A stretch of 64,000 nt of DNA from Blepharisma japonicum. Its lineage: Eukaryota; Ciliophora; Heterotrichea; Heterotrichida; Blepharismidae. Position numbers and translations under genes: made by a program. Under the pieces are notes generated by a model. That model ran no database searches, was not told where the DNA came from, and saw only the letters and a program-made list of their open reading frames with translations. This document shows positions 27,439 through 50,175 of the stretch, in pieces (within the stretch, counting starts at the first letter, position 1; every line of letters starts with the position of its first letter). The stretch lies in the NCBI GenBank assembly GCA_949751835.1, contig CATKHK010000097.1, forward strand, positions 62,001 through 126,000, written 5' to 3'.

Positions 27439-28040
27439 TATATGTAATATATGTAGTTTTTGTAAGATTTTGTATTTATTATATTTATATTTTTGATTTT
27501 TTATGATTTTCAGCTTAAGCTGCTTTGGTAGCAATTTCGATTAATCGAGTCTTATTATTTGCAATAGAGAAAAATATGATCTTTATTTTAAAAAATTGGT
27601 AAGAAAATTTAATTGTTTAAGGATCTTTTAAGCCTCAATTGAACTCTTTTATCCATAATTAGCTCGCGCATTTATGCTCATTTATGAAATTTCGAGTATC
27701 CACTAGCATTTAAAGATTTAAGCTTGCTTTATGAATTCCAAAAAAAATTTTTTTAGGTTAATTAATAACGATATAAAGCTAAAATTTCACTTTTGGCAAT
27801 GTAATCCGAATCACATATTTGTCCCCAGAAATTTTTAAAAGAAATTCAATTAAGTCATTAATCGAAGCTGAAATTAATCATTAGCTATGTCATCAAATTA
27901 AATAATTTATGATCATAATATTTCAACATATGAGATTAGGCTTAATTCTGAAGAGATTTCTTTGATCTATACCTCTTAGTCAATAAATTTAAAAATATCA
28001 ATAATATTTACTGACTTATTTATCAAAGGGACTGAATAAA
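27439..28040. other. Spacer between kinases 4 and 5
   Basis: 600 bp of AT-rich DNA that opens with short direct repeats of TATGTAATA right after the kinase 4 stop. Nothing else is recognisable. Confidence 0.5.
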
Positions 28041-30164
28041 ATGGAACAATCTCAAGTAACCTGGTGGGAAGAAGAGTGCGAAGCAATTTACAAACTACTG
28101 CAAAAGTTTAGTTTAGTCATGGCCTGTTTTGCTGCAATCGTATGACCTCTATTTATTTTTCTGGACGCTTCTGAATATTTTTGTGACACCCTAAAACTTG
28201 GCTCAATCATGAATATTATCTGAGCACCAATTATATGATTTTCATATAACCACAAGTCCAACTATAAAGCTGTACTATCAATTGTATATTCTGAATATCT
28301 TAATATCCTTTCCATCTCTTTGTCTCATAATGATTTAAAGGATGAAAAACTGATACTATTACTGTTGACGTTTTTGGTCTGCTTAACTTTTCAATTTTCA
28401 ATGATAAAACACATTGTTTGTTTCAATATTATGGTGGTAAAATACCTTTATATGTGGTATGTACATGAGCATTTATTTAAGAACTCAGGAGAGGTCTGAT
28501 ATAGGCATTCCTCGTATTTTATACCTATGGCCGTTATAATGTTGAACCTATTAACTTTACACGCAAGAAATATTTCTTTTGAAAGATTTTTGTATAGGAG
28601 TGAATTAGAGCACTCGAAGAATCGGCTAAATATTATTACAGAGTCTTTTTCTGATGGAATTTTGATCATTTCTCAGCGCATGAAAATAGAGTTTTATAAC
28701 CTTTGTGTTATCCAAAAATTGAGATCTGCGCCAGATAAGTTGTTAGCTATGATAAGCTCTATGGTATTCTGTGAAAAGAAAAAGGTCTCCAATTTTACTT
28801 CGTCAAATTTCTTAATAGATGAAATTTCTTATCTTTTTAATAGCACATATAATGAAGAAATAACACTGGGCTTGACTTCTGGAAATTTAGAATGAAAAGC
28901 TCTTCACATGATTTGGGAAAATAATCCAGCCCTATTCATAACAATAAGAGATGTGACCGATTCGGTAGAGCTTGAAAAAAAAGCTTCCTGTGACCAGATG
29001 AAAACTCTATTACTCCGTTCAGTTTCGCATGAACTTAGAACCCCTTTAAACTCAATTATACATTTTACCAATAAATTATTACAAAGCACCCATATTTGAG
29101 ATGCTGAAGACATAAAGAAGTTGAAGATTATTTCTATTTCAAGTACATTAATGCTTTCTTTAATAAACGACTTGCTTGATTATTCAAAGATCCTTACCGG
29201 CGTTTTTTCTATCCATAAAACACAATGTAATTTAAAAGACTTAATTAAAAGCTCTTGCAGTCTTTTTGAATACCAAGCGGCTAAAAAGAATTTGTACATT
29301 AACTTTAGAATTGATAAAGATTTACCTGATATCATCTTCACTGATTCTTTAAGAATTAGTCAAATTATTTTAAATTTATTAAGGAATGCCTTTAAGTTTA
29401 CCCAGGAAGGAAAAATTGAAGTCATTTGTCTCAAAACAGCAAAAAATACGATGAAGTGTTGTGTTGAGGATACAGGGTCTGGTGTTAGCATAGAAGAAAT
29501 AAGAAAAATGATAAAAGAAATTGACCCTTTAAATATTCCTAATCTCGGGCCAAGAGGGCATGGATTTGGCCTGTACATATCAAATCTATTGCTTAATCAA
29601 TTAGATGGAAACTCAATAAAAGTAGATTGCAATATTGGAAAGGGTTCAATTTTTTATTTCAGTATTAGCATTTATGAGGACAAACCTTTAAGCCTTTCCA
29701 TTGAAAATACCGAAACATGCACCAATGAGCGTATTTTACCTATAGCAATATCAAGTTATATTCATTCAAAAGGCTTTAAAAAAGACATTCTTATTGTGGA
29801 TGATTTAGAATTTAATTTAGACGTTTTAGGGTCAACATTAAAATCTTGTGATTTTGAGTATGATGAAGCAAATAATGGAAGAATGGCTGTGGAAAAAATA
29901 ATAAGAAAAGATGTTTCTGATTGGCCATATAAAGTGGTTGTCATGGATTGCGAAATGCCTGAAATGACTGGATGAGAAGCATCAGCTTATATTGATCAGC
30001 AGTATCGGCAAGGGAAAATTCAGCATCTTCCTTATATAATTGGGTACTCTGCATACTGTTCTGAAGAAGATATAAAACTGTGCTATCAGTGCGGAATGAT
30101 AGACTTTTTGCCAAAACCTTGCCCTCAAGAAAAAATAATCGAAACTATTAAAAAATTTATATAA
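28041..30164 (+). CDS. Membrane hybrid histidine kinase 5
   Basis: 707 residues with start MEQSQVTWWEEECEAIYKLL (Trp-Trp tag), membrane helices to about residue 180 and PAS-like segment NIITESFSDGILIISQR. The H-box is RSVSHELRTPLN with His330 and the N-box is QIILNLLRNAFKFT, where Arg replaces the usual Ser before Asn. G1 is VEDTGSGVS and G2 GHGFGLYISNLL. The receiver has LIVDDLEFN, Asp636 in VMDCEMPEMTG and LPKPCPQ. G1 has Ser in place of Ile, a milder change than loss of the Asp or Gly residues, so kinase activity is still plausible. Tandem paralogue of kinase 4. Confidence 0.92.
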
Positions 30165-30214: not shown

Positions 30215-33118
30215 CTATTTTTGTTGTGATGAGAAATCCAGCAACTTCCTATTTTTTTCACTAATAACAGTTCTAGATAATGATATATCATAAGCAACTA
30301 GTCCCCACTTCATTAATGATCACTCTAAGCAGTTCAAATTTTCTTCTTTTGAGTCATCATAAAGATGCCTTATATCCCAGCATTTTATTGTCATATCTTC
30401 GCTAGCAGATATAATTCTCTTACCACATAGAGAGAAATCAAATGAGTTGATCATTTTTAAATGCCCTTTCAAAGTATAAATCAGCATTCTTTTTTCGAAA
30501 TCCCATAAATCAATAGTTAAATTCAAATTTATTGCAGCTAATAAAGATCCACAAGGAGAAAATTTAACTTGTGAGTAGTTCAGAGTGCTTGAGCCGTAAA
30601 GACTAATTATTTCTTCTGGAGAATTTATATGGCAAATGCTAATTCAATTGCTTGGATTCATCGTAAAAGCAAGGTAATTTTGATAGGGAGCGAAATTAAT
30701 TGAGGTTAAACTGAAATCAGGAAAAGAGGTTAAACTGAAATCAGGAAAAGAGGTTTTTATTTCCAGCTCAGAGATAAAATATCCTGTTTTAACATTTCAA
30801 AACCTAATTATACCGCTGCTGGCAGATGCAAGTCTCATTGAATTGCAAGAAAATGAGAGAAATTGTATACCTTTGCAATGCGCGTATTTACTTGTGGAGG
30901 AATTTATTTTGCATATTAGCTTGTTTGAGTATAGCTCAGCAATTTCAATGGAGCCATCAGAGAAACCGAGGGCAATCAGACTTTCTCGAGAAATCGCAAA
31001 TGAAATGACTCTCAATGGAAAATCTCTCACAAATTCTACTGTTGATCTATATAAATGGAAGCCACAATAGCTGGAAATAACAAAATGGTTTCCACAAGGA
31101 GAAAAACCAAAATTAGGATTTACGTCAAATCCAAAATATCATTTAATTTCTCGCACCACTTTTTTTGTTTTATTGCTTCATATTTCAATTAGGCCGACAG
31201 CATTTTCTCTTGAAATTAATGCAAATTGATCTTCATTTGGAGTTCATAAGACCATAAAATTGTATTTTCTATTGGTTGGCTCTGGATTTTTGGATAATGG
31301 AATTTTGTATTTTCATAATCTAGCATAATTATTAATTTCAACAATTGCTAATTTATCGTCCTTAGGAGAAAAATCTAGCTTAGGAGCACTTGAAAGTTTC
31401 ATCAGAAACTGAAATGTAAAGGTCTGCTTCTCTATATCATAGATTTGTATGAGACCTTTTTTATTTGAAACAGCTAAGAATTTTGTGCATGAGGATAGAG
31501 CTCAATCACAAAATTCATTGCTTGAATCGTTATATAGTGTTTTTTCTTCTTTTTTTTCTAAATTTCATATAAAAATTTTTTGCTTGCTCGAAGCAAATAT
31601 ATATTTTTCATTTTTTGTTAATATGGCTCAAATGAGCTCATATCTTGATTTGAGCTTTCATACTAATTGCCTATTTTTGACAGTTCTAGGAACTCCTAAA
31701 ATATCTATAACTATTTTGGTTTTTGGAAGTTTAATATTTCATATCAAAATCAAGCCTCAATCACTTGTAGATATCAGGTAGTTCTGTGTAAATGCAAGAG
31801 AAATTACAGGTCGATCATGCCCACACAAGTATCTCACTTCCTTTTTTGTATTTGCATCTCAAATTTTGATATTATTATTGTAAAATCCTGCTGCAATCCA
31901 TGTACTGCACAATGAAAATGCCAAAGAACAAATAGATTCAGTGATGATGCCTATAGTATGGGCATCCAATTTAGAATTTTTTATGTTTAATAAAATTATT
32001 TGGTATTGATGAGCCACCGCCAAATAATTCCCACAAGGCGAAAATTGGCAATGGTAAATTTTTTGTTCAGTAGAATAGGTTCTCACTATTTCTTGGCTGT
32101 TGATGTCACATATGAGAATTTCGATTTGGTTTTCATTACAGAAAACTATGTATTTTCCACAAGGAGAAAATTTTACTATAGTGCCAGCAGTTCTAGTTGG
32201 GCTTAAGTAGCTTTCGCCAAACTCAGCTTCGGCCAAATTGCAGTCGTCAAAATTGACGGAATAAAGATTTGAATTGGTAAAGTTTACATTTGTGAGGTCG
32301 CTTCCTTCGAAATTTGTACCAATGATAAGGGAGCTTGATAAATCTGCTCCAGGGATTTTTATGTTTCTTAAGTCTTTGTGAGATAATGGATAGTTAAGGC
32401 GATTCAAGATTGTTATTGCGTTGCTTGATCCTTGAGATACTTCTGAAGATTCTTTGGAGAATAATACTAAATTAAATAGGCCTTCCTGCAGCTTTTTTGA
32501 TAGAATATTTTTTAAGATGCTACAAATTTCAGGGAATTTTTTTATGTCAAACTTATTGAAATAAGAATTTTTCAAAATTTCAATGCTTTCTCATTTCAAA
32601 ATATCTTGAGATATAAGATAAGCTAACTTCTCATTGAAATTATGTATAGTAAATTTGCATACTTTTTCTTGATTTTCAATAAAATGCATAAAATTACGCT
32701 TACATTCAGATTTGTTACCTTTTATGCAATGCTGGTTTTTTGATTTTAAGGAAATACTAAGTTCAATATTTTTAAAATTTCTTTTCTCGATAAGCCTTAA
32801 TGAGAAGCTGCTTTTTAGCTTTATAATGCAAGATTGTATTTCTTTATCAATTTTATTCAATTCAGAATTAAGCTCTGACAATTTTGACTCATTTAATAAG
32901 TTTTCGAGGCCTGCATTTATTAAGGATTTATCGTTTTTCTTTGATTTTTCTTTAGCTTCTAAATTTGATGAGTCAAGTATAGAGTTCGCGATGTGTGGAT
33001 ATTTATTGATCTCTGATAAATGAGATTCAAAGTGATTCTCACATATGAGGGTCCCTTTTATTGAACAGCTGCAGATTAAATGTGGGAAACTGCTACAATT
33101 TTCGATACAGCAGGCCAT
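30215..33118 (-). CDS. Zinc-finger/pentapeptide/WD40 protein W1
   Basis: 967 residues, one frame through many TGA codons that fall on the Trp ending WD repeats. Residues 3-33 form C-x4-C-x7-C-x-C-x7-C-x2-H-x3-H, a B-box-like zinc site shared with W6. A helical segment leads to SSNAITILNRLNYPL and KIPGADL, then pentapeptide repeats (ADLSS, TNFEG, SDLTN, VNFTN, SNLYS, VNFDD, CNLAE; residues ~249-302). From ~305 to the end come roughly a dozen WD40 repeats (FSPCGKYIVF, FSPCGNYLAVA). WD40 propellers are scaffolds; no enzymatic domain is present. It sits 22 bp from the end of W2 on the same strand. Confidence 0.88.
30702..30749. repeat. Exact 24-bp tandem duplication inside W1
   Basis: Two identical 24-bp units (30702-30725 and 30726-30749) encode a doubled FPDFSLTS in a WD40 loop. 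The in-frame duplication adds eight residues and looks recent because the units are identical. Confidence 0.9.
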
Positions 33119-33140
33119 TTTTTAATTATAAAATGACTAT

Positions 33141-35696
33141 TTAGTTATATTTTTGCCAATCCCAAAATTTAACTGTGCAATTATTGACACCTGCAGCGAT
33201 AATATTCTCGCTATAAGTAAACTCAAAGCAAGCAATTAAGCCCATATTTTCCTTTATGCTGGCTAATAGTTCCCCTCTTTCAACATGCCATATAAAGATT
33301 TCTGACTTTGGCTTAGCATCAATACCTTTTGAGCTCAAAGCTGCAATATAAATTCCGCTTGGAGAAAATCTCAATGATGAGTAAGGATTACTGGCATCGC
33401 TTATCAATGTTTTAAATTCTCCAAACGAAAGGTTAAATTCATAAATAAAAATTTTTAAAGTGCTTTCCATTGTGTAAGCTATATATTGATTTGAAGGACA
33501 AACCTGCAGGATAGTATTTATCTTGGATCTTTTTTTAATAATATTAATTATTATCCACTTTTGATTGCCTATTAGTTTTATCTTATTGTCGGACCTGAAA
33601 GCAACAAGCATTTCTTTATATTGAGTGAAGCCTAGATATCTGATGAAATTATTTTCGAAATTAAGAAATCGGGTCTTCACTATAGAGTTTATGAGATCTT
33701 TTACTTCTCAGAGTATTAGAATACTTATGCTTCCTGCTGCAATTATTTTTTCATTATGGGAAATGGCAATGCTTTTAATATTTTCAAAATTGACTAGCTC
33801 GTGAAGCATGTCTAAATGTGGAGAATATATACAGACTGAGCTATTCTTAGGGACTGCTATATAGCTGCCATAGGATGAATAGATAATAACTTTTGCTGCA
33901 TAATTAGGAGAACCGATATCAATATTTTTTATAGCTTTATGCTGAGCTAAATCTCATAACTCTATCTCTCCCTCTCCACAGTGTGTAACAAAATAGTTAC
34001 TACATGGAGAAAATGAAATAGAGTTGAAAATATGATTGCTTGCTTTTATTAATTTATTGTAATTTGGGTTTCAAATATTAAAAAATGAAATAACTCTTCC
34101 TTCACTAGCAGCAGCTATTGATTTTCCATCTTGCAAAAAGACAACTTTTTTTGATGTTTTGCATGGTTGGCAATAACTTTGATAAATAAAATCCTGAGTT
34201 TCTATATCAAAAGCTATGATTTTTCCGTCTTCTGCTCTAAATGCAAGTAAATTTATCTGATTGAAAGAAGCTGTTGAAATTATAAAAGTTGGGTCATATA
34301 AAAATATTTTTTCTCCTATATTAACGTTTCATATTGAAATTTTCAAAGCTAGGCAAACTATGAATTTCCCACATTTGCTGAGTATTAGCTTTGAGATTAG
34401 CCTATCTTCTTTAAAGCACTTAGCCAATTTTTGGGTGTATTTCCCTTTCTTTTTATAATATTTCAACGCTCTATGCTCATAATAAAATAGATCCCACATA
34501 AGAATAGACATGTCAGAGCCAGTAGAATACAGAAAATTGCTACATAAAGAAAAAGTTATATCAATTACCTTGGATTTATTGCAACATATTCAGGCAATAA
34601 GCTCTTTGCTATTTATATTCCAAACTCTAATGCTATTATCCAAACTCCCAGCTGCAATGCATGTTTCACATCAAGAAAACGCAACAGAATTAAACGATTT
34701 ATGAAATCGTCCAAATATAATTTCATTGCAATTATTTTGCAATTCATATAAAGCAACTTCTCATCCTCTAATTATTGAAATATATTTTCCATTTGGCGAA
34801 AAATTTAGCTGAGCTTTAGCTGAATTTATATCGAAATATCAGATTTCCTTAAGCAATTTATCAGATGCTATTTCTCATACTCGTATTTTACTGTCATTGC
34901 AAAGCTCAGATGCCGCTAAATACCTTCCACAGCTAGAAACATTGAAGTTTAACCCAATTTTCTTATCTCCTCGAATTGGCTGACTTCTGAAAAATTTAGC
35001 ATTTTCCATGTTGCAATTGCTAAAATTCACTTGATAAAGGTTTGATTGATTAAAATTAGCTGAATTAAGATTGCTGCCTTTAAAATTTGTGTTGATTAAA
35101 AGAGAGTAAGACAAATCTGCATATGGGATATTTACTAATTGAAGATCAGCATTATTAAAAGAGCAGCCAAGTTTGTTTAAAATGGAAATTGCATTACTTG
35201 CAGCTCTTGAAATTTCAGGAAACCCCCTGGAAAGAGTAATAATTTTAAATAGACTTTCTTGTAGATCTGTTGAGAATGATGATTTAATAAGCTCAAGACC
35301 TGCATAAAATGTTGAGAAGTCAATTAAATTGAAATAAGAATTCCTAAGACTTTCAGCCCGAGTCCATTTGGGGATGTCTTTAGTTACAGTGTTTCATACC
35401 CAAAAATGTATATCTCTTAGGCATTCTATCTTATTATTTTCTAGCTTATGGAGCTTAGAAGATATAAGTTCATTTGATTTATATCAAATACTTGATTTTC
35501 CTCTTTTCGTGATATGATTTTGTTCAATGATGCAATCAAATTTATTTAAATAGCTAAAAGATAGATGCCTTAGATTTGATTTATATAATAAAAGTATTGA
35601 TTGCTTTGCATTGCTTATATCATTCTTTTTCATAATATTTATAGCAAAATTCTCTGTGTCTTCATCTTCCATATATAATAATTTATGCAATCTCAT
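33141..35696 (-). CDS. Pentapeptide/WD40 protein W2
   Basis: 851 residues from the ATG at 35696, chosen because MRLHKLLYMEDEDTENF aligns with MNYKLLKYMENEITREDL of W3 and W5; an upstream in-frame ATG at 35747 would add 17 hydrophobic residues. The zinc finger of W1 and W6 is absent and replaced by a helical start (ILLLYKSNLRHLSFSYLNKF). Then follow ASNAISILNKLGCSFNNADL, IPYADL, pentapeptides (TNFKG, SNLNS, ANFNQ, SNLYQ, VNFSN, CNMEN) and WD40 repeats ending KFWDWQKYN. TGA encodes the propeller Trp at several places. Probable scaffold of unknown partner; closest to W3-W5. Confidence 0.87.
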
Positions 35697-36723
35697 AAAA
35701 ATAGAAAATAAAAAGATAATTTTTAGTCTAAAAAGCAAATAATACAATCCAATTAACCCAATTTCTAAAAAAAATTATAATTATTAAATATGTGTAATTA
35801 ATTATCAAAGAAATTGCTCTTTTTGATGTCCTTGATCTCAAGAATTATTAATGAAGAAATAGAATTTTTCTGAATAATTTAGCGATATTAAAATGCATTT
35901 AGCATATTAATATTTTGATGTCTAGAAAGAGAAAAAATAAAAATCTTCAGTCATAGAATTTTTAACTGAATAAATAAAAGCTAAATCTATGAAATAATTT
36001 AAATAAAATAAAAACATAATTAGTATTTAAGCAAAATTTAACTTCTATTATAAAGATATTTATTTATAAAAAAGCGTTTATAAACCTATTTATTAGGCAC
36101 ATAGAATGGCCGTTGATATGCGACTCATTCTTACAGTGCGCGCGATTTTACTTGATGCAAAAAATTGCCCAAAGATTGGTTAAGATCGAGGCGATAGATT
36201 TACCCTCTGATAGTGGTCTATATCAAGCAGCAGCATTTTGCATATTTTTGCGAGAAGCACCATAACAAATTTGGCTCCGAAAGATCGATCCGGGCAGAGC
36301 TACGGAGAAACTTAGGCAGGTAAGCCAATCTACTTTAGCCGCTGAGACTTTTTTGAGGATGATTCAGGGAAAGAGGGAAGGTTGACTTGATAAAGGCCAG
36401 TAAGACAGGGATAAAAAACTCTCCAGCTGAAAAGGGCTCCTTAATTTGGGTGATCTTAGGCTAAATTGGAGACATTAAAGCTTGGGTTAAAAATGAAGGT
36501 TCCCGCAATATTCTGTGTGATCGGAATCAGGAGAAAAATGCCTCACCTTAAAATGAGGGTTTTCGCCTGGAACACTAGCCTTGAGGGATCTCATCTCTCA
36601 TAGCAGACGCTATGAAAAACATGATATTTAGTAAGTGGAAATGTTATTTCAAGAACAAATCTAGTCTAATAATTTTATATAATATAAGAATATTAGATTT
36701 ATAGATGATAATACGTAATATAA
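35697..36723. other. Repeated spacer between W2 and W3
   Basis: Three blocks are repeated elsewhere in the cluster. About 35918-36085 matches 43922-44097. About 36086-36443 matches in part 44098-44290. About 36444-36700 matches 40819-41070 and 44296-44535. The last block is unusually G-rich for this DNA (TTGGGTTAAAAATGAAGGTT...GAGGGTTTTCGCC) and always lies immediately 3' of a WD40 gene (W3, W4, W5). No tRNA or known RNA fold is recognised. Confidence 0.75.
36105..36430 (+). mobile_element. Possible retroelement RNase H fossil
   Basis: A stretch of higher GC has a plus-strand reading that includes LRQVSQSTLAAETF, which resembles the STLAAE segment of Ty1/copia-type RNase H domains. No long terminal repeats, integrase or reverse transcriptase are visible. 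It is a short, broken, probably old fragment; a shorter and more diverged copy lies at about 44100-44285. Chance resemblance is quite possible. Confidence 0.2.
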
Positions 36724-39324
36724 TTATTTTTTTATTATATTTTGCCATTCCCAGAATTTAATTACGCAGTTTTTGATGCCTAAAGCAATTACTTTATCGC
36801 TAGCGGAAAATTCAAGGCAAGTAATTAAGTCCTCAGATTCCTTAAAACTGGCTAATAACTCTCTGCTCTCAACATCCCATACATAAATAATGTTTCTATG
36901 CTTTATCTCAGAGGTTACAATGCTCAAAGCTGCAATATATTTTCCACTCGGGGAGAGCTTGATAAGTTTATAAGGATCATTTGCCTTACTTTTAAATATG
37001 CTTTCTAATCACATATCAGAATTTAGATCATAAAGAAAAATTTGATTCAAAGCTTCAGAAGTATAAGCAAAAATTTGGCTGAAAGGAGAATTATGGAGTA
37101 TGATATTCTCTTTCAGATTTTTGATATATGACACGCATTTCATATCTCGGCAATTCCATATTTTGATTTTGTTATCTGCGGAGCAAGAGATTAGAGTTTC
37201 TTTATTTTGAGTGAATCCTAAGTACTTTGTGTGATTAAATCTCGCATAAAGTATACCAATTTGCATTATGAAGTCTTGGCTTTTTACCTCTAAAAGATTA
37301 ATTTGATCATACAGATCTCCAGTGGCAATTAATTTTTCATCATAAGAAATAGCTAGAGACCTGATATATTGGCCATTACCTGTAATTTCATGAAGTAAAT
37401 CTAAATTTGGAGAGTAGATAAAAATTAAGCTATTGCTGGGCACTGCTATATAGCTGCCAGATGGTGAATATATAATAACTTTTACAGCATGATTTGGAGA
37501 ACCTGTATCAATGTGTTTTATAACTTTATGCTGTACTAAATCTCATAATTCTATCTCTGACTCTCCACAATGTGTAACAAAATAGTTACCACATGGAGAA
37601 AATGAAATAGAGTTAATAGTATTATTGCTTTTTTTTATTGGTTTATTGATGTCTAAACCAGAAATATCAAAAAATGAAATGCCTTTTCTTTTGCTAGCAG
37701 CCGCGATTGATTTTCCATTAGGCAAGAAGGCAATTTGTGAGGATTCTTTAAATATTTCACAATAGTTTTGATAAATAAAATGCTGAGTTTCTATATCAAA
37801 AACCAGGATTGTTCCATCTCCTGCTCTAAACACAAGTAAATTTATCTGATTGAAAGAAACTGTGGAAAATAAAAAAGTTGGGAAATATAAAAACACTTTT
37901 TCTCCAATATTTATGTTTCATACTGAAATATTACTTGAAACACAAACTATGAATTTCCCATTACTACTAGGTGTTATTGATTTAATTCATTTTTCATCCT
38001 TAAAGCGCTTTAAAAGTTTTTTTCCTTTCTTTTTCTTATTACGAATAAAAGTTGTTCCTTTATAGCACGGCACTAGCTTACTCTTTGCTAAAAAGTCTCA
38101 TACTAGAATATAAGAATCGTAGCCAGCTGAATATAAGAACCTATTGCAAGGAGAAAATGACACATCTGAAACCTCTTCAGCGTGCCCATTCAGCATATGA
38201 ATAAGTGATTTGCTTTTTAAATACCAAACTTTAATGCTATTATCCATACTTCCAGCTGCAAAATATGTTTCACAAGAAGAAAATGCAAAGCAAAAGGCAT
38301 ATTTGCGAAACCCTTCAAATGTAGTTATTTTGCAATCATTTTTCAAATCATATAAATTCACTATTCCAGATTTTATCGTTGCAATATAACGAGAGCTTGG
38401 TGAAAATCGTAATAAAGATAGAAGTCTTAAATCTCCGCAATAAATTTCTTTCAATAATTTATCAGATGCTATTTCTCATACTCGTATTGTTGCTTCATTT
38501 TCGAATCCAAAAGCTGCTAAATACCTCCCACATCTGGAAAAATCAAATTTTGCTCCGATTTTCTTATAACTTATAACCGGGTGATTGCTGGAAAACTTCG
38601 CATTGTTTAAGCTGCAATTTTTAAAATTCACTTTGTAAAGTTTTGATTGAGAAAAATTAGCTGAATTGAGACTGCTGCATTTAAAATTGGTGTTGATGAA
38701 AAAAGAGCGCGATAAATCGGCATATGGGATATTTACTGATTGAAGATCAGCGTTATTAAATGAATAGCCAAGCTTGTTTAAGATAGAAATTGCGTTGCTT
38801 GCAGCTCTTGAGATCTCAGGAAGGCCTTTTGAGAGAGTTATGATTTTAAATAAGATTTCTTGGAGATTAGCTGAGAAATATTTTTTAAATAGCTCAAGAC
38901 TTGGATAAAATGATACAAGATCAACTGAATTGAAATAGGAATCTCTGAGAGTTTCAGCGTGGGTTCATTTAGGAATGTCTTTAATTATAGTGCTTCATAT
39001 GCAAAAATGGATGTCCTTTAAGCATCCTGTCTTATTAATAATCCGCTTATAAAGCCTGCAAGATATTAATTCTTTTGAGTTATACCTAAGGCTGTGTGCA
39101 TTTGCATTTCATTTTCCTCTTTTCTCAATGCTATTTTGTGTAATAATGCAATCAAGATCATTTAAATATTTTAGAGCCGAAGATTTTGAGTGAGATTTAT
39201 ATAGTAAAAGCATCGATAATTTCCTATTGTGTATATGATTCTCTTTTCTGCTATTAATAATAAAATTGTCTAAGTCTTCACGAGTTATTTCGTTCTCCAT
39301 ATATTTTAATAATTTATAATTCAA
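36724..39324 (-). CDS. Pentapeptide/WD40 protein W3
   Basis: 866 residues, no intron, TGA at WD Trp positions. Start MNYKLLKYMENEITREDLDN, helical N-terminus (SMLLLYKSHSKSSALKYLND), conserved link RAASNAISILNKLGYSF, IPYADL, pentapeptides (TNFKC, SSLNS, ANFSQ, SKLYK, VNFKN, CSLNN, AKFSS), then WD40 repeats such as FAFSSCETYFAAGSMDNSIK and FSPCGNYFVTHCGESEIELW, and a last repeat ending KFWEWQNIIKK. Nearly identical over long stretches to W4 and W5, so duplication is recent. It has its own 3' G-rich spacer block, which duplicated together with it. Function unknown beyond a probable scaffold role. Confidence 0.87.
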
Positions 39325-39468
39325 TGAAATAGGTCTGAAATATTACACTTACAAAATTTAAATTATAAACAACTCTTAAGTGGGTATTTCAAGCACAAAT
39401 CTAATCTAATAATAATCTTGTATAATAAATAAATATGGATATATAGATGATAATACGTAATATAAGTA

Positions 39469-39499
39469 TTATTTTATTATTTTTTGCCATTCTCAGAAT
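39469..39499 (-). pseudogene. Tip of a WD40 gene 3' end
   Basis: The last ~10 codons of a W-family gene (KFWEWQKIIK then TAA) abut the end of the SET relic. The same junction type appears, with longer WD40 pieces, at 43640-43850 and 47299-47482, so the tip is the remainder of a W copy replaced by SET sequence. Confidence 0.6.
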
Positions 39500-40818
39500 T
39501 TAATTAATTCTTGCTTCTCTTAGATCAGAGATCTCTTTGCTAAGGAGATTTTCTATTGAAATGTTTTTATCACCTTTGAAAATTGCCTTCAATCGACTTT
39601 TTATTGAAAAATCCTTGTTTCCTCATAAATAATCTAAAATTTCATCAGCTAAGATACAAATTGGACAGTGCAAATGATCATCTATATTTTGAATTATTTA
39701 TTTTATTTTGTTCATCGTTATCATTAACTCCTTTCTTAGCACACAATAAAATTTTTGTACTTCCTCGTAAATATCTGTTGAGCCCATCTCTTTAAGTTTT
39801 TCTTTTTTATAACCACATAGGGCTTCAATATTCTTTAGAGTGAAATAAACTTAGCATTTTAGCCATTCTGGGCAATTAAAAAGCAAAGATGTACTTAGAT
39901 TATACAGCCTTATGTAATCTTCCATAGATGATGAATACTCGGTCTGTCATAAAAGACATAGAATATAAAAACTCCCAGAAAAATGCACTTGGCCAGTTTC
40001 GGCATTATTTAAATAGAGGTAAAATCCATTGCAATTAGATTGTGAGCATAATCATATACTGTTTTTATGTTCTTCTTCAATTTCCGTATAAGATCCATAA
40101 TTTCAACAAAGTTCTTCTCTTGGATTTATATTATTTATTGCGTATAGAGCCATTTTATACTGTCCACATGAGATAATTGTTCTAAGCTCACAATTGGACT
40201 TACAAGAATGGTTTATTTTTGGTACCCAGTTTCCTTTGACGCTGCTATCTATTAAAAATATTTTATAGCCTTTCATATCATCAGCTTCCCTTTCAAGCTC
40301 AACGTTGTAAAAATTTTAAAAGGTTGAGTTTCTCCATATATACTTTTGACAATTTGCTTTATTATCATATCTTTCTCATAAAATTGAGTGGGGTTAAAAA
40401 TCTATCCAATGTATTCTGCTAAGAATGCATTCTTTGAAATACTTTCTGGGCCATTATTAAATATCCCGAATCCTTTTTGGGAAACTATGAATTCTTAAGT
40501 ATATTTTCTATTCCAAGAGAATAAAACACATTAAGCAAAGTTTTTGCAAAATTTTTCTCTTCGACATTGAAATCATTTACTTCAATAATTGTTGACAGAC
40601 AGTGAATAAGGTCTTTGCTATAGTTGAAGAAATCCAATTTATTTCATTAAGCAAACTTTTGATTATAAGCAGCTTTGCTTTTTTGGTATTTCCTAAAATA
40701 TAGCACAACATCATTACAGTTCGTTTGTCAAATCCAAAAGAGGGCCGTTCACTAAGATTTATTCCACATACATAATTCTCGTTTCTCTTTGAAACTTCTT
40801 GGTTGAAGCAATTTGTCT
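39500..40818 (-). pseudogene. Decayed SET-domain (histone methyltransferase-like) gene
   Basis: The minus strand retains clear SET motifs: VSQKGFGIFNNGPESI and FLAEYIG near 40400-40500, and WVPKINHSCKSNCELRTI followed by YKMALYAINNINPREELCWN near 40100-40250. These are the NHSC and ELxxxY signatures that bind AdoMet and form the catalytic pocket. Several in-frame TAA/TAG stops (including one inside EYIG*IF) and at least one frame change near 40310 interrupt it. The C-terminal part (LADEILDYLWGNKDFSIKSR) ends at TAA 39500-39502. An intact ancestor would have methylated lysines on histones or other proteins. Short introns could explain one break but not all. Confidence 0.8.
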
Positions 40819-41093
40819 GAGTGATCTTAGGTTAAGTTGGATATACTGAAGCTTGGGTTAAAAATGAAGGTTCCCGCAATATTCTCTGTGATCGGAATGA
40901 GGAGAAAAATGCTTCACCTAAAAATGAGGGTTTTCGCCTAGAACAATCAGCCTGAGGGATCTCATCTCCATAGCAAACGCTATGAAAAACATGATATTTA
41001 GTAAGTGGGAATGCTATTTCAAGAACAAATTTAATCTAATATTTTTGTATAATATAAAATTATTAGATATATAGATGACAATACGTAATATAA
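40819..41093. repeat. G-rich spacer block 3' of W4
   Basis: Matches 36444-36723 and 44296-44553. It starts GTGATCTTAGGTTAAG and runs through AAGGTTCCCGCAATATTCT to the W4 stop. Non-coding on both strands as far as I can see. Confidence 0.8.
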
Positions 41094-43517
41094 TTATTTT
41101 TTTATTATATTTTGCCATTCCCAGAATTTAATTACGCAGTTTTTGATGCCTAAAGCAATTACTTTCTCGCTAGTAGAAAATTCAAAGCAAGTAATTAAGT
41201 CTTCAGATTCTTTAAAACTGGCTAATAATTCTCTGCTCTCAACATCCCATACATAAATTATGTTTCTGTACTTTACCTCAGAGGTTACAATGCTCAAAGC
41301 TGCAATATATTTTCCACTCGGGGAGAGCCTGATAAGTTTATAAGGATCATTTGCCTTATTTTTAAATATGCTTTCTAATCATATATTAGAATTTAGATCA
41401 TAAAGAAAAATTTGATTCGAAGCTTCAGAAGTATGAGCAAAAATTTGGCTAAAAGGAGAATTATGGAGTATGATATTATCTTCCAGTTTTTTGGGGTATC
41501 GCATGCTTTTCATTTCTCGGCAATTCCATATTTTGATTTTGTTATCTGCGGAGCAAGAGATTAGAGTTTCTTTATTTTGAGTAAATCCTAAGTACTTTGT
41601 GTGATTAAATCTTGCATAAAGTAAACCAATTTGCATTATGAAGTCTTGGCTTTTTACCTCTAAAAGATTAATTTGATCATACAGATCTCCAGTGGCAATT
41701 AATTTTTCATCATAAGAAATAGCTAGAGACCTGATATCGTGGCCATTACCTCCAATTTCATGAAGTAAGTCTAAATTTGGAGAGTAGATAAAAATTAAGC
41801 TATTGCTGGGCACTGCTATATAACTTCCAGATGGTGAATATATAACAACTTTTACTGCATAATTTGGAGAACCTGTATCAATGTGTTTTATAACTTTATG
41901 CTGTACTAAATCTCATAATTTTACCTCTGACTCTCCACAATGTGTAACAAAATAGTTACCACATGGAGAGAATGAAATAGCGTTAACAATATAATTGCTT
42001 TTTTTTATTGATTTATTGATGTCTAAACCAGGAATATCAAAAAATGAAATACCTTTTCTTTTGCTAGCAGCCGCGATTGATTTTCCATTAGGCAAGAAGG
42101 CAATTTGTGAGGATTCTTTACCTATTTCGCAATAGTTTTGATAAATAAAAAGCTGAGTTTCTATATCAAAAGCCAGGATTGTTCCATCTCCTGCTCTATA
42201 TGCAAGTAAATTTATCTGATTGAAAGAAACTGTGGAAAGTAAAAAAGTTGGGGAATATAAAAACACTTTTTCTCCAATATTTATGTTTCATACTGAAATA
42301 TTACTTGAAACACAAACTATGAATTTCCCATTACTACTAGGTGTTATTGATTTAATTCCTTTTTCATCCTTAAAACGCTTTAAAAATTTTTTTCCTTTCT
42401 TTTTCTTATTACGAATAAAAGTTGTTCCTTTATAGTATGGCACTAACTTACTCTTTGCTACAAAGTCTCATACTAGAATATTAGAATCGTAGCCAGCTGA
42501 ATATAAGAACCTATTGCAAGGAGAAAATGACACATCTGAAACCTCTTCAGCGTGCCCATTCAACCTATGAATAAGTGATTTGCTTTTTAAATACCAAACT
42601 TTAATGCTATTATCCATACTTCCAGCTGCAAAATATGTTTCGCAAGAAGAAAATGCAAAGCAAATGACACATTTTCGAAACCCTTCAAATGTAGTTATTT
42701 TGTAATCATTTTGCAAATCATATAAATTCACTATTCCAAATTTTATCGTTGCAAGATAACGAGAGCTTGGTGAAAATCTTAATAAAGATAGAAAACTGAA
42801 ATCTCTTCAATTAATTTCTTTCAATAATTTATCAGATGCTATTTCTCATACTCGTATTGTTGCTTCATTTTCGAATCCAAAAGCTGCTAAATACCTCCCA
42901 CATCTGGAAAAATCAAAATTTGCCCCGATTTTCTTATAACTTATAATCGGGTGATTGCTGGAAAACTTCGCATTGTTTAAGCTGCAATTTTTAAAATTCA
43001 CTTGGTAAAGTTTTGATTGATAAAAATTAGCTGAATTGAGACTGCTGCCTTTAAAATTGGTGTTGATGAAAAGAGAGTGCGATAAATCGGCATATGGGAT
43101 ATTTACTGATTGAAGATCAGCGTTATTAAATGAATAGCCAAGTTTGTTTAAAATAGAAATTGCGTTGCTTGCAGCTCTTGAGATCTCAGGAAGGCCTTTT
43201 GAGAGAGTTATGATTTTAAATAAGATTTCTTGGAGATTAGCTGAGAAATGTATTTTAAATAGCTCTAGACTTGGATAAAATGATGCGAGATCAACTGAAT
43301 TGAAATAGGAATCTCTGAGAGTTTCAGCGTAGGTTCATTTAGGAATGTCTTTAATTATAGTGCTTCATACGCAAAAATGGATGTCCTTTAAGCATCTTAT
43401 CTTATTAATAATCTTCTTATAAAGCCTACAATATATTAATCCTTTTGAGTTATACCTAAGGCTGTGTGCATTTGCATTTCATTTTCCTCTTTTCTCACGA
43501 ATTATATCGTTCTCCAT
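41094..43517 (-). CDS. Pentapeptide/WD40 protein W4, N-terminal deletion
   Basis: 807 residues. It is colinear with W3 except that after MENDIIRE the sequence jumps directly to KRGKWNANAHSLRY: about 51 residues of the helical N-terminus found in W3 and W5 are gone, with the frame preserved. The missing DNA ended in a TCA shared by both edges, as expected for a microhomology deletion. The rest is intact: NAISILNKLGYSF, IPYADL, pentapeptides (TNFKG, SSLNS, ANFYQ, SKLYQ, VNFKN, CSLNN), WD40 repeats, and the C-terminal KFWEWQNIIKK. Whether it still functions is open, but the rest of the frame is clean. Confidence 0.82.
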
Positions 43518-43639
43518 ATATTTTTATAATTTATAATTTAATAAAATAGGTCTAAAATATTACGCTTACAAAATTTAAATTATAAACAACTCTTAAGTGG
43601 GCATTTCAAGCACAAATCTAATCTAATAATATATAGATG

Positions 43640-43850
43640 ATAATACATACTATAAGTATTATTTTATTATTTTTTGCATTTTCCCAGAATTTAATTTTGC
43701 AATTTTTGATTCCTATTGCAATTATTTTCTCACTAGCAGAAAATTCAAAGCAAGTAATTAAGTCCTCAAATTCCTTAAAACTTGCTAGTAGCTCTCTGCT
43801 CTCAACATGCCATATATAAATTATGTTTCTATATTTTATCTCACTCCCCT
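43640..43850 (-). pseudogene. Relic of a WD40 gene 3' end
   Basis: About 65 codons matching the final WD40 repeat of W3-W5 (EIKYRNIIYIWHVESREL then FEDLITCFEFSASEKIIAIG). The end is altered (FWENAKN instead of FWEWQN) and nothing matching the rest of the gene precedes it. A remnant of an additional copy deleted between W4 and W5. Confidence 0.85.
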
Positions 43851-44553
43851 CTTTAAACGATAAAATTTCAAATTTTGGGTAATAATTGCTTTAATGAAAA
43901 AATAGAATTTTTCGATATTCATATTAATATTTTGATGCCTAGAAAGAGAAAAAATAAAAATCTTCAGTCATAGATTTTTTAACTGAATAAATAAAAGCTG
44001 AATCTATGAAATAATTTAAATAAAATTAAAACAAAATTACTATATATAAGCAAAATTTAACTTCTATTATAAACATATTTACTTATAAAAAAGCGTCTAT
44101 AAAACTATTAGGCACATAAAACGGCCGTTGATATGCGACTAATTCTCACAGGATGTGCGAGTTTTCTTGATGCAAGAAGCTGCACAAAGATTGGGTTAAG
44201 ATCGAGCCGATTAGTTTAACTTCTGATAGTGGTCTATATCAAGTAATACATTATGCATAGTTTTGCAAGAAGTAATACCAAATTTGACCTTAATTTGGGT
44301 GATCTTAGGTTAAGTTAGGTATACTGAAGCTTGGGTTAAAAATGAAGGTTCCCGCAGTATTCTCTGTGATCGGAATTAGGAGAAAAATGCTTCACCTAAA
44401 AATGAGGGTTTTCGCCTAGAACAATCAGCCTGAGGGATCTCATCTCCATAGCAAACGATATGAAAAGCATGATATTTAGTAAGTGGGAATGCTATTTCAA
44501 GAACAAATCTAATATAAAAATATTAGATATATAGATGATAATACCTAATATAA
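43851..44553. other. Repeated spacer between W4 relic and W5
   Basis: Carries second copies of all three blocks seen at 35918-36723: about 43922-44097, a shortened 44098-44290, and the G-rich block 44296-44553. No gene is visible. Confidence 0.75.
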
Positions 44554-47157
44554 TTATTTTTTTATTATATTTTGCCATTCCCAGAATTTAACTACGCAGT
44601 TTTTGATGCCTAAAGCAATTACTTTCTCGCTAGTAGAAAATTCAAAGCAAGTAATTAAGTCTTCAGATTCTTTAAAACTGGCTAATAATTCTCTGCTCTC
44701 AGCATCCCATACATAAATTATGTTTCTGTACTTTATCTCAGAGGTTTCTATGCTCAAAGCTGCAATATATTTTCCACTCGGGGAGAACTTGATAAGTTTA
44801 TAAGGATCATTCTCCTTACTTTTAAACGTGCTTTCTAACCAGACATTAGAATTTAAAGCATAAAGAAAAATTTCTGTTGAAGCTCCAGAAGTATAAGCAA
44901 AAGTTGGGTGAGAAGGAGAAGCATGGATTATGGCATTCAATTCTTTCAGATGTTTGAAGGACCACTTGCATTCCATTTCTTGGCAACTCCATATTTTAAT
45001 TTCGTCATTGGCAGAGCAAGAGATCAGCATTTCTTTATTTTGAGTGAATCCTAAGTATTTGGTGCAAGTAAATTGCGAATTAAGTATAGAAAGTTGTTTT
45101 ATGGAGTCTTGGCTTATTACTTCTCAAAGAATAATTTCATCATCTATACTTCCAGCGGCCATTAATTTTCCATCAAAAGAAATAGCTAGAAACCTGATTA
45201 ATATGCCACTACCTGTAATTTCCTGAAGTAAGTCTAAATTTGGAGAGTATATAAAAATGAAACTACTATTGGACATTGCTATGTAGTTACCAGATGGTGA
45301 ATATATAATAACTTTTTCTGCATAATTACGAGAACCTGTATCAATGTGTTTTATAACTTCATGCTGTGCTAAATCTCATAATTCTATCTCTGACTCTCCA
45401 CAATGTGTAACAAAATAGTTACCACATGGAGAAAATGAAATAGAGTTAACAATATAATTGCTTTTTTTTATTGGTTTATTGATGTCTAAACCAGAAATAT
45501 CAAAAAATGAAATGCCTTTTCTTTTGCTAGCAGATGCGATTGATTTTCCATTAGGCAAGAAGGCAATTTGTAAGGATTCTTTACCTATTTCGCAATAGTT
45601 TTGATAAATAAGATGCTGAGTTTCTATATTAAAAACCATAATTGCTCCATCTTCTGCTCTGCACGCAAGTAAATTTATCTTATCAAAAGAAGCCATGGAA
45701 AGTAAAAAAGTTGGGGAATATAAAAACACTTTTTCTCCAGCATTTATGTTTCATACTGAAATATTTTTTGAAAGACAAACTATGAATTTCCCATTACTAT
45801 TAGGTGTTATTGATTTAATTCATTTTTCATCCTTAAAACGCTTTAAAAGTGTTTTTCCTTTCTTTTTCTTATTACGAATAAAAGTTGTTCCTTTATAGTA
45901 CGGTACTATTTTATCTTTTGCTGCAAAATCTCATACTAGAATATAAGAATCATAGCCAGCTGAATACAAGAACTTATTGCAAGGAGAAAATGACACATCT
46001 ATAACTTCATCTGTATGCCCATTAAGCGTATGAATAAGTGCTTTGCTTTTTAAATACCAAATCTTAATGCTATTATCCTTGCTTCCAGCTGCAAAATATG
46101 TTTCGCACGAAGAAAATGCAAAGCAAGAGATATTTCTTTGAAACCCTTCAAATGTAGTTATTTTGTAATCATTTTTCAAATCATATAAAGTAACTATTTT
46201 AGATTTTATAGTTGCAATATAGCTGGAGCTTGGTGAAAATCGTAATAAAGATAGAAATCTTAAATCTCCGCAATTAATTTCTTTCAATAATTTATCAGAT
46301 GCTATTTCTCATACTCGTATTATTGCTTCATTTTCGAATCCAAATGCAGCTAAATACCTCCCACATCTGGAAAAATCAAATTTTGCTCCGATTTTCTTAT
46401 AACTTATAATCGGATGATTGCTGAAAAACTTCGCATTGTTTAAGCTGCAATTTTTAAAATTCACTTGGTAAAGTTTTGATTGAGAAAATTTAGCTGAATT
46501 GAGACTGCTGCCTTTAAAATTAGTATTAATGAAAAGAGAGTGGGATAAATCGGCATATGGGATATTTACTGATTGAAGATCAGCGTTATTAAATGAATAG
46601 CCAAGCTTGTTTAAAATAGAAATTGCGTTGCTTGCAGCTCTTGAGATCTCAGGAAGTCCTTCTGAGAGAGTTATGATTTTAAATAAAATTTCTTGAAGAT
46701 TAGCTGAGAAATGTATTTTAAATAGCTCAAGACTTGGATAAAATGATACAAGATCAACTGAATTGAAATAGGAATCTCTGAGAGTTTCAATGTGGGTTCA
46801 TTTAGGAATGTCTTTAATTATAGTGCTTCATACACAAAAATGGATATCCTTTAAGCATCCTATCTTATTAATAATCTGCTTATAAAGCCTGCAAGATATT
46901 AATTCTTTTGAGTTATACCTAAGGCTGTGTACATTTGCACTTCATTTTCCTCTTTTCTCAATGCTATTTTGTGTAATAATGCAATCAAGATCATTTAAAT
47001 ATTTTAGAGCCAAAGACTTTGAGTGAGATTTATATAGTAAAAGCATTGATAATTTCCTATCGTGTATATGATTCTCTTGTCTGCTATTAATAATAAAATT
47101 GTCTATGTCTTCACGAGTTATTTCGTTCTCCATATATTTTAATAATTTATAATTCAA
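44554..47157 (-). CDS. Pentapeptide/WD40 protein W5
   Basis: 867 residues, with start MNYKLLKYMENEITREDIDN and the full helical N-terminus. Then RAASNAISILNKLGYSF, IPYADL, pentapeptides and WD40 repeats (FAFSSCETYFAAGSKDNSIK, ISFSPCGNYFVTHCGESEIE) to KFWEWQNIIKK. It resembles W3 closely in the N-terminal half, but the block coding for roughly the third-last to second-last WD repeats (near 44820-45250) differs far more from W3 and W4, which resemble each other there. This mosaic points to exchange between copies. Otherwise the same scaffold-type protein. Confidence 0.87.
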
Positions 47158-47298
47158 TGAAATAGGTCTGAAATATTACGCTTACAAAATTTAAATTATA
47201 AACAACTCTTAAGTGGGCATTTCAAGCACAAATCTAATCTAAATATAATTTATAATAGATAAATATAGATATATAGATGATAATACGTAATATAAGTA

Positions 47299-47482
47299 TT
47301 ATTTTATTATTTTTTGCCATTCCCAGAATTTAATTATGCAATTGATGATTCCTATTGCAATTATTTTCTCACTAGCAGAAAATTCAAAGCAAGTAATTAA
47401 GTTCTCAAATTCCTTAAAACTTGCTAGTAGCTCTCTGCTCTCTACATGCCATATATATATTATATTTCTATATTTTATCTCA
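47299..47482 (-). pseudogene. Relic of a WD40 gene 3' end, second
   Basis: About 61 codons of the terminal WD40 repeat (EIKYRNIIYIWHVESREL to IIKFWEWQKIIK and TAA). No upstream part exists; W6 ends only 93 bp further on. Same type as 43640-43850 and nearly identical to it. Confidence 0.85.
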
Positions 47483-47574
47483 GCAAAAGCTATTAAAATG
47501 AAATGCGACTAATCTAATTAAATTTAATTGAAAAGCTAATAAATCGTCATTCATTCTAATTTTAATTATATTTT

Positions 47575-50175
47575 CTAGATTCTGTATAGCTTGAATGTTC
47601 TATCAGCACTTACTGAAGCAAATTCAAGCTTTTTATTATCGACAAACTGAAGAGAATTGACTGCATTGGAATGATATTTTAGTTCTTTTATAAGAGTTCC
47701 GTCCCACGTATTCCATAATTTTACGCAGCCATTTAAGCTTCCAGTTATCAAACAACCTCCACATAAAGACACAGCCATGGAGGGTATCATCCGGTTATCA
47801 GCTTGAATTTCTAAAATTTTCCATTGTGCTTCAATATCCCAAAGTATTACTTGCCCACCTATATCTGCTGAAATCAGATAATTAGCAGATTGAACGAAGC
47901 TAACACATAATAAATTATGCACATGACCATCCAAAGTCAACGATTTTTTGCTATCAAGATCTCATAAAAGCAGCTTTGTATTATCACTTGCAGTAGCAAG
48001 ATATTTATCACATGGTGAAAACGCGATAGAGCTGAGCAATTCTGAGCTGCATTTTAAAAAAAAATAATTTGACGGTGTCGCTAGATCCCATACCTTAACT
48101 TCTCCATTGAATTGTCCAGCAGCTATAATTTTCCCATTATAGGATACATCAATTGTAGAAATTTGAATATAACCCATAATGAATTCCTTTAAAAGATACT
48201 GATTTGCTACGTCCCAAACAGTGATATAATTCCTCGAGCACAATGATATAAGGAAATACCCAAATTTTAGAAACTTAACGTTAATGGCTATCCCTTTGTC
48301 GATTTGAAGCTTAAATTCATTTTTCTTTGTCTCAGTATCTTTAATCATGATGAATTTTGATGTGTCTGCAACTGCAATATATTTTCCATCATAAGAAAAA
48401 GATATAGAAGTGATTTGATTGCAAAAAGCAGGATGCTCTTCTAAAGATTTGATAGCTCAAATTTCTATTGATTTTTCTGATTTATCTGATTTCTTTATTG
48501 CTATATATTTTCCATTAGGAGAATAAGAGACTGATAGCATACTGAAAAGTTGTTCATTGAATCATTTTACTTCTAAGTTGTTGTGTTTTGCTAAGAACTT
48601 AAGAAATGGTAATTGGTCTTCAGAATATAAGTGAGATCTCTTAGAATATCTTAATAAATGCAATGAATTATAATCATTTCTAATTTCTTTATCTAGACGT
48701 CCAGTCTCTAGATCTCAGGTTCTAATAACTAAATCATCACAGCTTGTTATTAAATATTTTGAGCATGGAGAAAATGAGACAGTCCTTACACAATCAGAGT
48801 GGCAAAATAGCCATTTATGGGAACTTATATCATCAACATAAGAAACTATTGCAGAACAGTAGTTAGTTCCAAAAGCAAAGTATTTCCCACAAGTAGAATA
48901 CGCAACTGAGTTTACAGTATCTTTATCATAGTTTATACAGGCAGCTAACATATATGTTTCAATATTTCATATTCTTATGTGCTCATCATAGCTTCCAGTC
49001 GCAACGAAATTTCTGTTAGGTGATATAGCTATTGAAGTAATAGAGTCTGTGTGGCCTGTTAACTTTATAAGTCGCTTTTCAAGCTTAATGTCTCATAAAT
49101 TCAGGATATAATTGCCATCAGCTACAGCAAGTAGAGTCCCATCTTTTGAAAAAGAAATGGCACTAATACTTGCATTGTGCTTGAATTCTTTGAATTTAAG
49201 ACCTTTTCTAATATCATGCATAATCACAGTATTGTAACAATCATAGGCTAAATAATTCCCACAGGATGAGAAAGCTACAGAATGGGCAGGGTATGTACTT
49301 ATAATTGGTGGAAGCTGCCCAAACCAAGCATCTGATAAATCACAGTTGCTGAAATTAGAATCATATATATTTGCATACGAAAAATCGACTCCTTTTAAGT
49401 TGCTTCCTTCAAAGTCTGTGTTTATTATTAGTGCTTCTGATAAGTCTGCACCTTTAATTTGAATTCCTCTAAAATCTTTATCAATAAAATTGTATTTGGA
49501 ATAATTTAAGATAGTTATAGCGTTGCTGGCTGCATATTTCAGATTTTTATTAATTTTTGAGTGTAAAATAATGCCTAAAAGCTTTTCTCTAAGTACATCA
49601 GTCATTATATCCTTGAAGCAGTTTAAAAAGTCTTTGTTGTTTCTGAAACTGATTTTATTGATATAGCTTTCATTGAGAGAGGAAGGACTGTTTATTTTGA
49701 GAATATGATCACTTAAGGATCTAGCAAGCTTATGATTGAGCTCATTACATGTATAGATAACAACTGATCGAGTAATATTTGGTAATAAGATCTCAGGCTT
49801 GATTGTGTCACAGGGATTTTGTGGATATCAGCTGTCTGAAATACTTACATGAGTCTTTCTTTTTGATCAATTGAGAGAAAGAATTATGAGCTCAGCATAC
49901 TGAATAATATATGCTAAAGTTTTACTAATATTGTCAGTAATTTTCTTATAGTATGAGTTCTGGCAGAAATTGCTTGCGAGTATATCCTCATAATCGCAAT
50001 TATTGTTTGGTCAATAATTTCTTGGAAGCATGCATATACTTCTATGTTGGATTTTGCTCGAATCTCTTAAGTGCTTCATAAAATGCTCTTTACAAAGTAA
50101 ATGCTCATTTGCTAAGCACACACAAACGAAAGCAGAAACATTTTTACACCACTTTATTTCACATTGCAAGGGCAT
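47575..50175 (-). CDS. Zinc-finger/pentapeptide/WD40 protein W6
   Basis: 866 residues from the ATG at 50175. The N-terminus MPLQCEIKWCKNVSAFVCVC, continued by LANEHLLCKEHFMKH, repeats the W1 pattern C-x4-C-x7-C-x-C-x7-C-x2-H-x3-H exactly. A Ser/Asn-rich helical part is followed by AASNAITILNYSKYNF, IQIKGADL, pentapeptides (TDFEG, SNLKG, VDFSY, ANIYD, SNFSN, CDLSD) at ~225-280 and WD40 repeats to the end (for example IAFSPCDKYLATASDNTKLL). It is more diverged from W2-W5 than these are from each other. It is head-to-head with the kinesin gene, 118 bp apart. Confidence 0.88.

Follow-up and report, generated by a model that had tools for sequence, protein, structure and literature searches.

Six minus-strand genes in a 64,000-nucleotide stretch of the Blepharisma japonicum genome (bases 62001-126000 of contig C97, hereafter the window) share a common plan, in which a helical link with the motif NAI[TS]ILN leads into a short beta-helix of pentapeptide repeats, followed by roughly two WD40 propellers. 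By homology and by the order of their parts, the genes are read as NACHT-less relatives of ARM/NACHT-pentapeptide-WD40 NLR (STAND) receptors that multiplied into a recognition or adaptor family, a reading that is favoured with roughly even confidence.

The six frames stay open over 807-967 codons with TGA read as Trp, with 9-15 in-frame TGA codons per gene and TAA or TAG as stops:

30215-33118, minus strand: g1, 967 amino acids; B-box-like zinc finger (32996-33118), link and pentapeptide (32216-32581), WD40
33141-35696, minus strand: g2, 851 amino acids; short N-terminus, link and pentapeptide (34992-35357), WD40
36724-39300, minus strand: g3, 858 amino acids; short N-terminus, link and pentapeptide (38587-38961), WD40
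41094-43517, minus strand: g4, 807 amino acids; like g3 (90% amino acid identity) with a shortened N-terminus, link and pentapeptide (42957-43331)
44554-47133, minus strand: g5, 859 amino acids; like g3 (84% amino acid identity), link and pentapeptide (46423-46794), WD40 partly divergent
47575-50175, minus strand: g6, 866 amino acids; B-box-like zinc finger (50020-50169), link and pentapeptide (49315-49692), about two WD40 propellers

The NAI[TS]ILN link occurs in all six genes, as the initial annotation of this DNA had claimed. The IPGADL/IPYADL start that it had assigned to the pentapeptide repeats (IP[GY]ADL) was found in five of them, and g6 has IKGADL instead. Among the Pfam matches listed for the six proteins, WD40 models are present in every one, in agreement with the earlier claim; pentapeptide rows are present for g1, g2, and g4, and NACHT is absent. 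By alignment, pentapeptide repeats are visible in all six. The zinc finger had been taken as a constant part of the family and is confined to two of the six genes (g1 and g6), while g2-g5 begin with a different short stretch. A structure model of g6 shows helices running into the beta-helix, with a predicted local distance difference test score (pLDDT) of ~63-90, and two propeller stretches of partly low confidence.

Size and N-termini of the ciliate family

Searches of the ciliate genome (G000; 45.2 Mb, 224 contigs) with the link-pentapeptide segment of g3 (125 residues) gave 94 matches (88 with E<1e-10), six of these in the window, while the same segment of g6 gave 93. The link, for which relatives beyond the cluster had been anticipated, has them in this genome and in bacterial NACHT-type proteins. 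The 94 link places lie on 47 contigs; for 52 of them the next link is no more than 8 kb away, and 34 of the 36 adjacent pairs share a strand. The frame upstream of the link was read at 42 of the 94 places, the six window genes among them, over at most 1500 bases (fewer at three contig starts); WD40 sequence outside the window covers the first ~490 residues only. N-termini ahead of the link range from 35 to 270 residues, and no NACHT or other NTPase was seen by reading upstream of the link at any of these 42 loci, which upholds the earlier statement that the family has no NTPase. The genome holds 12 NACHT matches, the closest of them 92 kb away from any link place. A TIR partner, which had also been envisaged, did not appear, as the genome gave no TIR_2 match.

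A U-box opens one of the 42 loci (L026, C52:102307; Pfam, E 2.7e-17), which is also the one case among 50 U-box matches in the genome that lies directly upstream of a link. The window contig has none of the 50, and 8 and 5 of them form gene clusters on C78 and C165, respectively. A link match at G000:C36:13222-14099 (link C36:13740) contains TGA and TAA and has a split U-box match just downstream on the same strand. The B-box-like finger, with eight invariant Cys/His, opens five read loci (g1, g6, L021, L047, L048) and stands upstream in the same frame at two more links (C12:546240 and C40:8422), as judged by position with the intervening DNA unread. Elsewhere in the genome, 45 further finger matches were found, many of them weak (E<=0.01). 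The four fingers scanned gave no Pfam B-box match, and comparison with solved structures gave no relative (best E 0.38).

Such N-termini are also what would be expected if ordinary WD40 scaffolds or substrate adaptors, of ubiquitin ligases for example, had expanded in this lineage to serve the cell itself. These would share the NACHT-receptor ancestry and recognise nothing foreign, and their fast WD40 change would be constraint relaxed by duplication. The U-box member and the fingers agree with this tenable if doubtful account, whereas 36 of the 42 loci have by reading neither U-box nor finger.

NACHT proteins related to the link

A ciliate link profile from which the motif had been cut found L008 (on C7), a NACHT-WD40 protein of the ciliate that has the start of the link, at 2.9e-10 (domain 4.5e-10); none of 546 reversed frames used as a control reached E<=1. 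The match covers profile positions 14-65 and includes the helix ahead of the link, which by its alignment position closes the NACHT module of L008. Furthermore, L008 aligns to the bacterial L011 from NACHT into WD40 (730 residues, E 1.4e-19), and it is the sole good match of bacterial NACHT in the ciliate genome (3.2e-7; next 0.19). As judged by the motif-cut results, the tie of the family link to L008 is firm. Because the first helix of the family aligns with the end of the NACHT module and looks like a vestige, loss of NACHT would be favoured over gain. Two further NACHT matches of the genome, L001 (G000 C15:475136) and L002 (G000 C12:390578), lie in frames in which, by eye, TPR-like repeats and a caspase-like CHAT segment (HISCHG...SACF) are present; they are possibly further STAND proteins of the ciliate.

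Prokaryote species genomes were scanned with the NAITILN pattern (tblastn, E<=1e-3), which gave seven loci. Four of these carry the link, three in one gammaproteobacterial metagenome-assembled genome (MAG; L009, L010, L012) and one in a Chlamydiae MAG (L011), and in all four it lies behind a P-loop NTPase in the same frame. Of the remaining L013, L014, and L015, the first and the last were read and are pentapeptide proteins. Two loci were run against Pfam: L011 matched NACHT at 1.3e-7 and also has ARM_5, and L009 matched weakly at 0.0039 (NPHP3_N 8.6e-6, just above its cut-off). The two carrier genomes hold four and five link copies, and all nine have a P-loop upstream in frame by reading. The link-pentapeptide-WD40 arrangement, which the initial annotation placed in some fungal and protist STAND/NACHT proteins, is present behind a NACHT-type NTPase in these bacteria. 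With hhalign, the ciliate and bacterial helices up to and including NAITILN, without pentapeptide, aligned at a probability of 98.3 (E 1.2e-14), and a model of the bacterial segment shows helices running into a beta-helix as in g6 (pLDDT ~63-90). Since the loci had been found by the NAITILN pattern, the helices were also compared without it. Going by the searches with NAITILN cut, the tie between ciliate and bacterial helices rests in good part on the NAITILN stretch together with the order of the pentapeptide.

Carriers of the link are rare. At E<=1e-10, only 2 of the 232 genomes from the phylum of L011 (G001) have it, the genome of L011 included, and in the order of G002 it is carried by 2 of 10 genomes, G002 included. 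A further genome of the chlamydia phylum, G150, has seven link matches on contigs C21 and C18, six of them on one contig as a tandem array. The six loci read there (L084-L089) have link, pentapeptide, and WD40 without NACHT, parallel to the ciliate array, which shows that a NACHT-less form can arise or survive elsewhere. Both the rare carriers and this NACHT-less bacterial version would also agree with the opposite order of events, in which link-pentapeptide-WD40 was the primary unit, NACHT joined it later, and symbiont bacteria may have acquired the module from protists. This history is considered unlikely, as the ciliate members keep the vestigial-looking helix that aligns with the NACHT-module end of L008 and as both NACHT-bearing bacterial genomes contain several diverged link copies.

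If the favoured reading as NACHT-less receptor relatives holds, the family would keep the parts that follow the NTPase, namely a helix aligned with the one that ends the NACHT module, a NAITILN link capping the pentapeptide beta-helix, and a sensor of about two propellers. A short variable N-terminus would take the place of the engine, among the members read with a U-box in one, the B-box-like finger in five, and nothing recognised in the rest. The link-pentapeptide core could then act as a constant docking or hinge piece and the faster-changing propellers could bind varied partners, while output would pass through the N-terminal adaptor (ubiquitin ligation for the U-box member) or through a partner protein. 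In a more far-reaching and improbable version, a STAND receptor would have been split into one engine, the single L008, and about ninety detached sensor tails, which would deliver ligands to L008 via the shared link; a single-celled eukaryote would then build its receptor repertoire by duplicating sensors alone.

Constraint, duplication and decay in the family

Nine close pairs, not all independent, were taken from the 42 loci read, and six of them were pooled. Across the nine pairs, the ratio of replacement to silent change (omega) is 0.61-1.14 in WD40 and 0.06-0.45 in the pentapeptide part where computable, and it is 0.19-0.36 in the link of six pairs. In the pooled pairs, link and pentapeptide together show 41 replacement against 33 silent changes (omega 0.30), while WD40 has 480 and 163, respectively (omega 0.72), and the N-terminus has an omega of 0.57. 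The difference between WD40 and link plus pentapeptide is significant (Fisher p 8e-4), and in the pair L027/L034 the core is 92% identical and WD40 55%. These figures demonstrate a difference in constraint between core and WD40 rather than positive selection. A conserved core with faster-changing propellers would fit a recognition family, and the greater constraint on the core in close pairs argues against ordinary adaptors.

Amino acid identity is 82-90% among g3, g4, and g5 and 54-56% between g2 and these three, while g1 and g6 are ~23-28% identical to the others. The link tree places g6 with genes on C65 and C91 and g2-g5 with a gene on C27, while g1 branches separately. By these identities and groupings, the array is a mixture of old subfamilies (g1, g2, g6) and a fresh triplication (g3, g4, g5). 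The triplication is marked by relics and duplicated spacers:

43666-43971, minus strand: 3'-end relic of a family gene, covering the last part of WD40 and 82-85% identical to g4/g5 over the best 55-57 residues
47302-47481, minus strand: another 3'-end relic of a family gene, immediately downstream of g6
35775-36723, no strand: spacer with 85-90% identical blocks in common with the spacers by g4 and g5, scars of segmental duplication

The 282 informative sites of g3, g4, and g5 are strongly clustered by pattern, with 122 runs, and none of 20000 shuffles gave a number as low. Either the three genes are mosaics or their regions differ in rate, and rate differences could add to the clustering; in a WD40 block of ~120 codons, g5 is ~56-61% identical to g3 and g4. 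With the two 3' relics and the duplicated spacers, the tandem expansion with mosaicism and relics described at first sight was confirmed. Recognition genes commonly form tandem arrays of this type, with mosaics and relics, although such arrays are not specific to them; to that extent the array speaks against ordinary adaptors.

Several results weigh against the favoured reading. The NACHT protein carrying the same segment that had been suggested for this genome was found in part, as L008 has the start of the link and neither NAITILN proper nor the pentapeptide. With NAITILN cut on both sides, hhalign fell to a probability of 85 (E 6e-6, 42 columns). The motif-cut ciliate profile found L082, L077, L078 with L009 (one gene), and L076 weakly, at 1e-3 to 4e-3, and L011 only at 0.029, while L079, L080, L081, L083, and the G150 frames were not found at E 1. 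For 52 of the 94 link places, the sole evidence is the absence of nearby NACHT matches. Link omega is 1.26 in two of the nine pairs, on few changes. As pooled WD40 omega is below 1, relaxed constraint explains the propellers too, and an apparent hot spot at one loop of the WD40 repeat (positions 17-21) was discounted because silent changes rise at the same positions and the replacement to silent ratio is not raised (p=1); the low omega and the lack of a loop excess once silent change is counted both agree with ordinary adaptors. The high internal WD40 repeat conservation of HNWD genes is absent from 30000-50300, where one 24-base array was found (2.2 identical copies, 30702-30755, inside the g1 coding frame). 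Finally, 5 of the 42 frames read terminate short of the locus end (L032, L035, L045, L047, L048), three of them within 310 residues, by breaks or introns.

These early closures, for which introns are possible, would together with the two 3' relics and the TAA or TAG codons in some of the 94 link matches also suit a gene family that has no function and is decaying or selfish. That explanation is very improbable, since all six window frames are open and link plus pentapeptide remain constrained in recent pairs, at the pooled omega given above.

Other long frames of the window, including those of a kinesin and a hybrid histidine kinase, also stay open with in-frame TGA, consistent with TGA as Trp. 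For Blepharisma stoltei, PMC9942806 reports UGA for Trp, a somatic genome of 41 Mbp, and the telomere unit CCCTAACA, and one contig of the present genome begins with the matching CCCTAACA. The array is adjoined by a hybrid histidine kinase with a receiver domain (28005-30164, Pfam), and by reading the plus-strand neighbour upstream (region 25471-30164) resembles such a kinase. Between g3 and g4 lies a SET-domain fragment (39851-40315; PF00856, 1.6e-12), which may belong to an unrelated gene that was carried along in the duplications.

Relation to known receptor systems

Receptors of the NLR type occur in animals, plants, fungi, and bacteria. Among the papers listed in a literature search that covered few subscription journals, none reported a ciliate family of this kind, and the words WD40, NACHT, and pentapeptide are absent from the main texts of the two Blepharisma genome papers. 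About ninety link loci with a constrained core and faster propellers, next to a NACHT protein with part of the link, would show the growth of a receptor repertoire without its ATPase. The family would allow a test of whether diversified intracellular receptors are maintained in single-celled eukaryotes. Its arrangement recurs in symbiont-type bacteria, which is relevant to gene exchange between protists and their bacteria.

The NACHT-type receptors of symbiont-type bacteria (L009-L012, L075-L083) show the same succession of link, pentapeptide, and WD40, whereas the ciliate proteins have neither NACHT nor an ARM_5 N-terminus and form a very large family. PMC11291939 reports NACHT-PPR-WD40 receptors in Mortierellomycota and homologs of them in Mycoavidus, an endosymbiont, in a main text in which PPR is never spelt out and the word 'pentapeptide' is absent. 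These fungal receptors may contain the same link. The HNWD family of Podospora anserina (HET-D, HET-E, HET-R), as described in PMC12222747, resembles the ciliate genes in its two-propeller WD40 sensor, its organisation as a gene family, and its recombination, while the ciliate genes lack HET and NACHT and have link and pentapeptide. Foldseek matched the g6 model to, among others, Apaf-1 (NB-ARC, two WD40 propellers), which shares the two-propeller tail; the match rests on WD40, and g6 has no CARD or NB-ARC. The G150 family is likewise made up of a short N-terminus, link, pentapeptide, and WD40 in a tandem array, without NACHT in the frames read, and differs in being bacterial, in its more regular WD40, and in its separate branch of the link tree. 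Set beside STAND/NLR proteins in general, the window genes lack NACHT/NB-ARC and possess the C-terminal, superstructure-forming sensor repeats.

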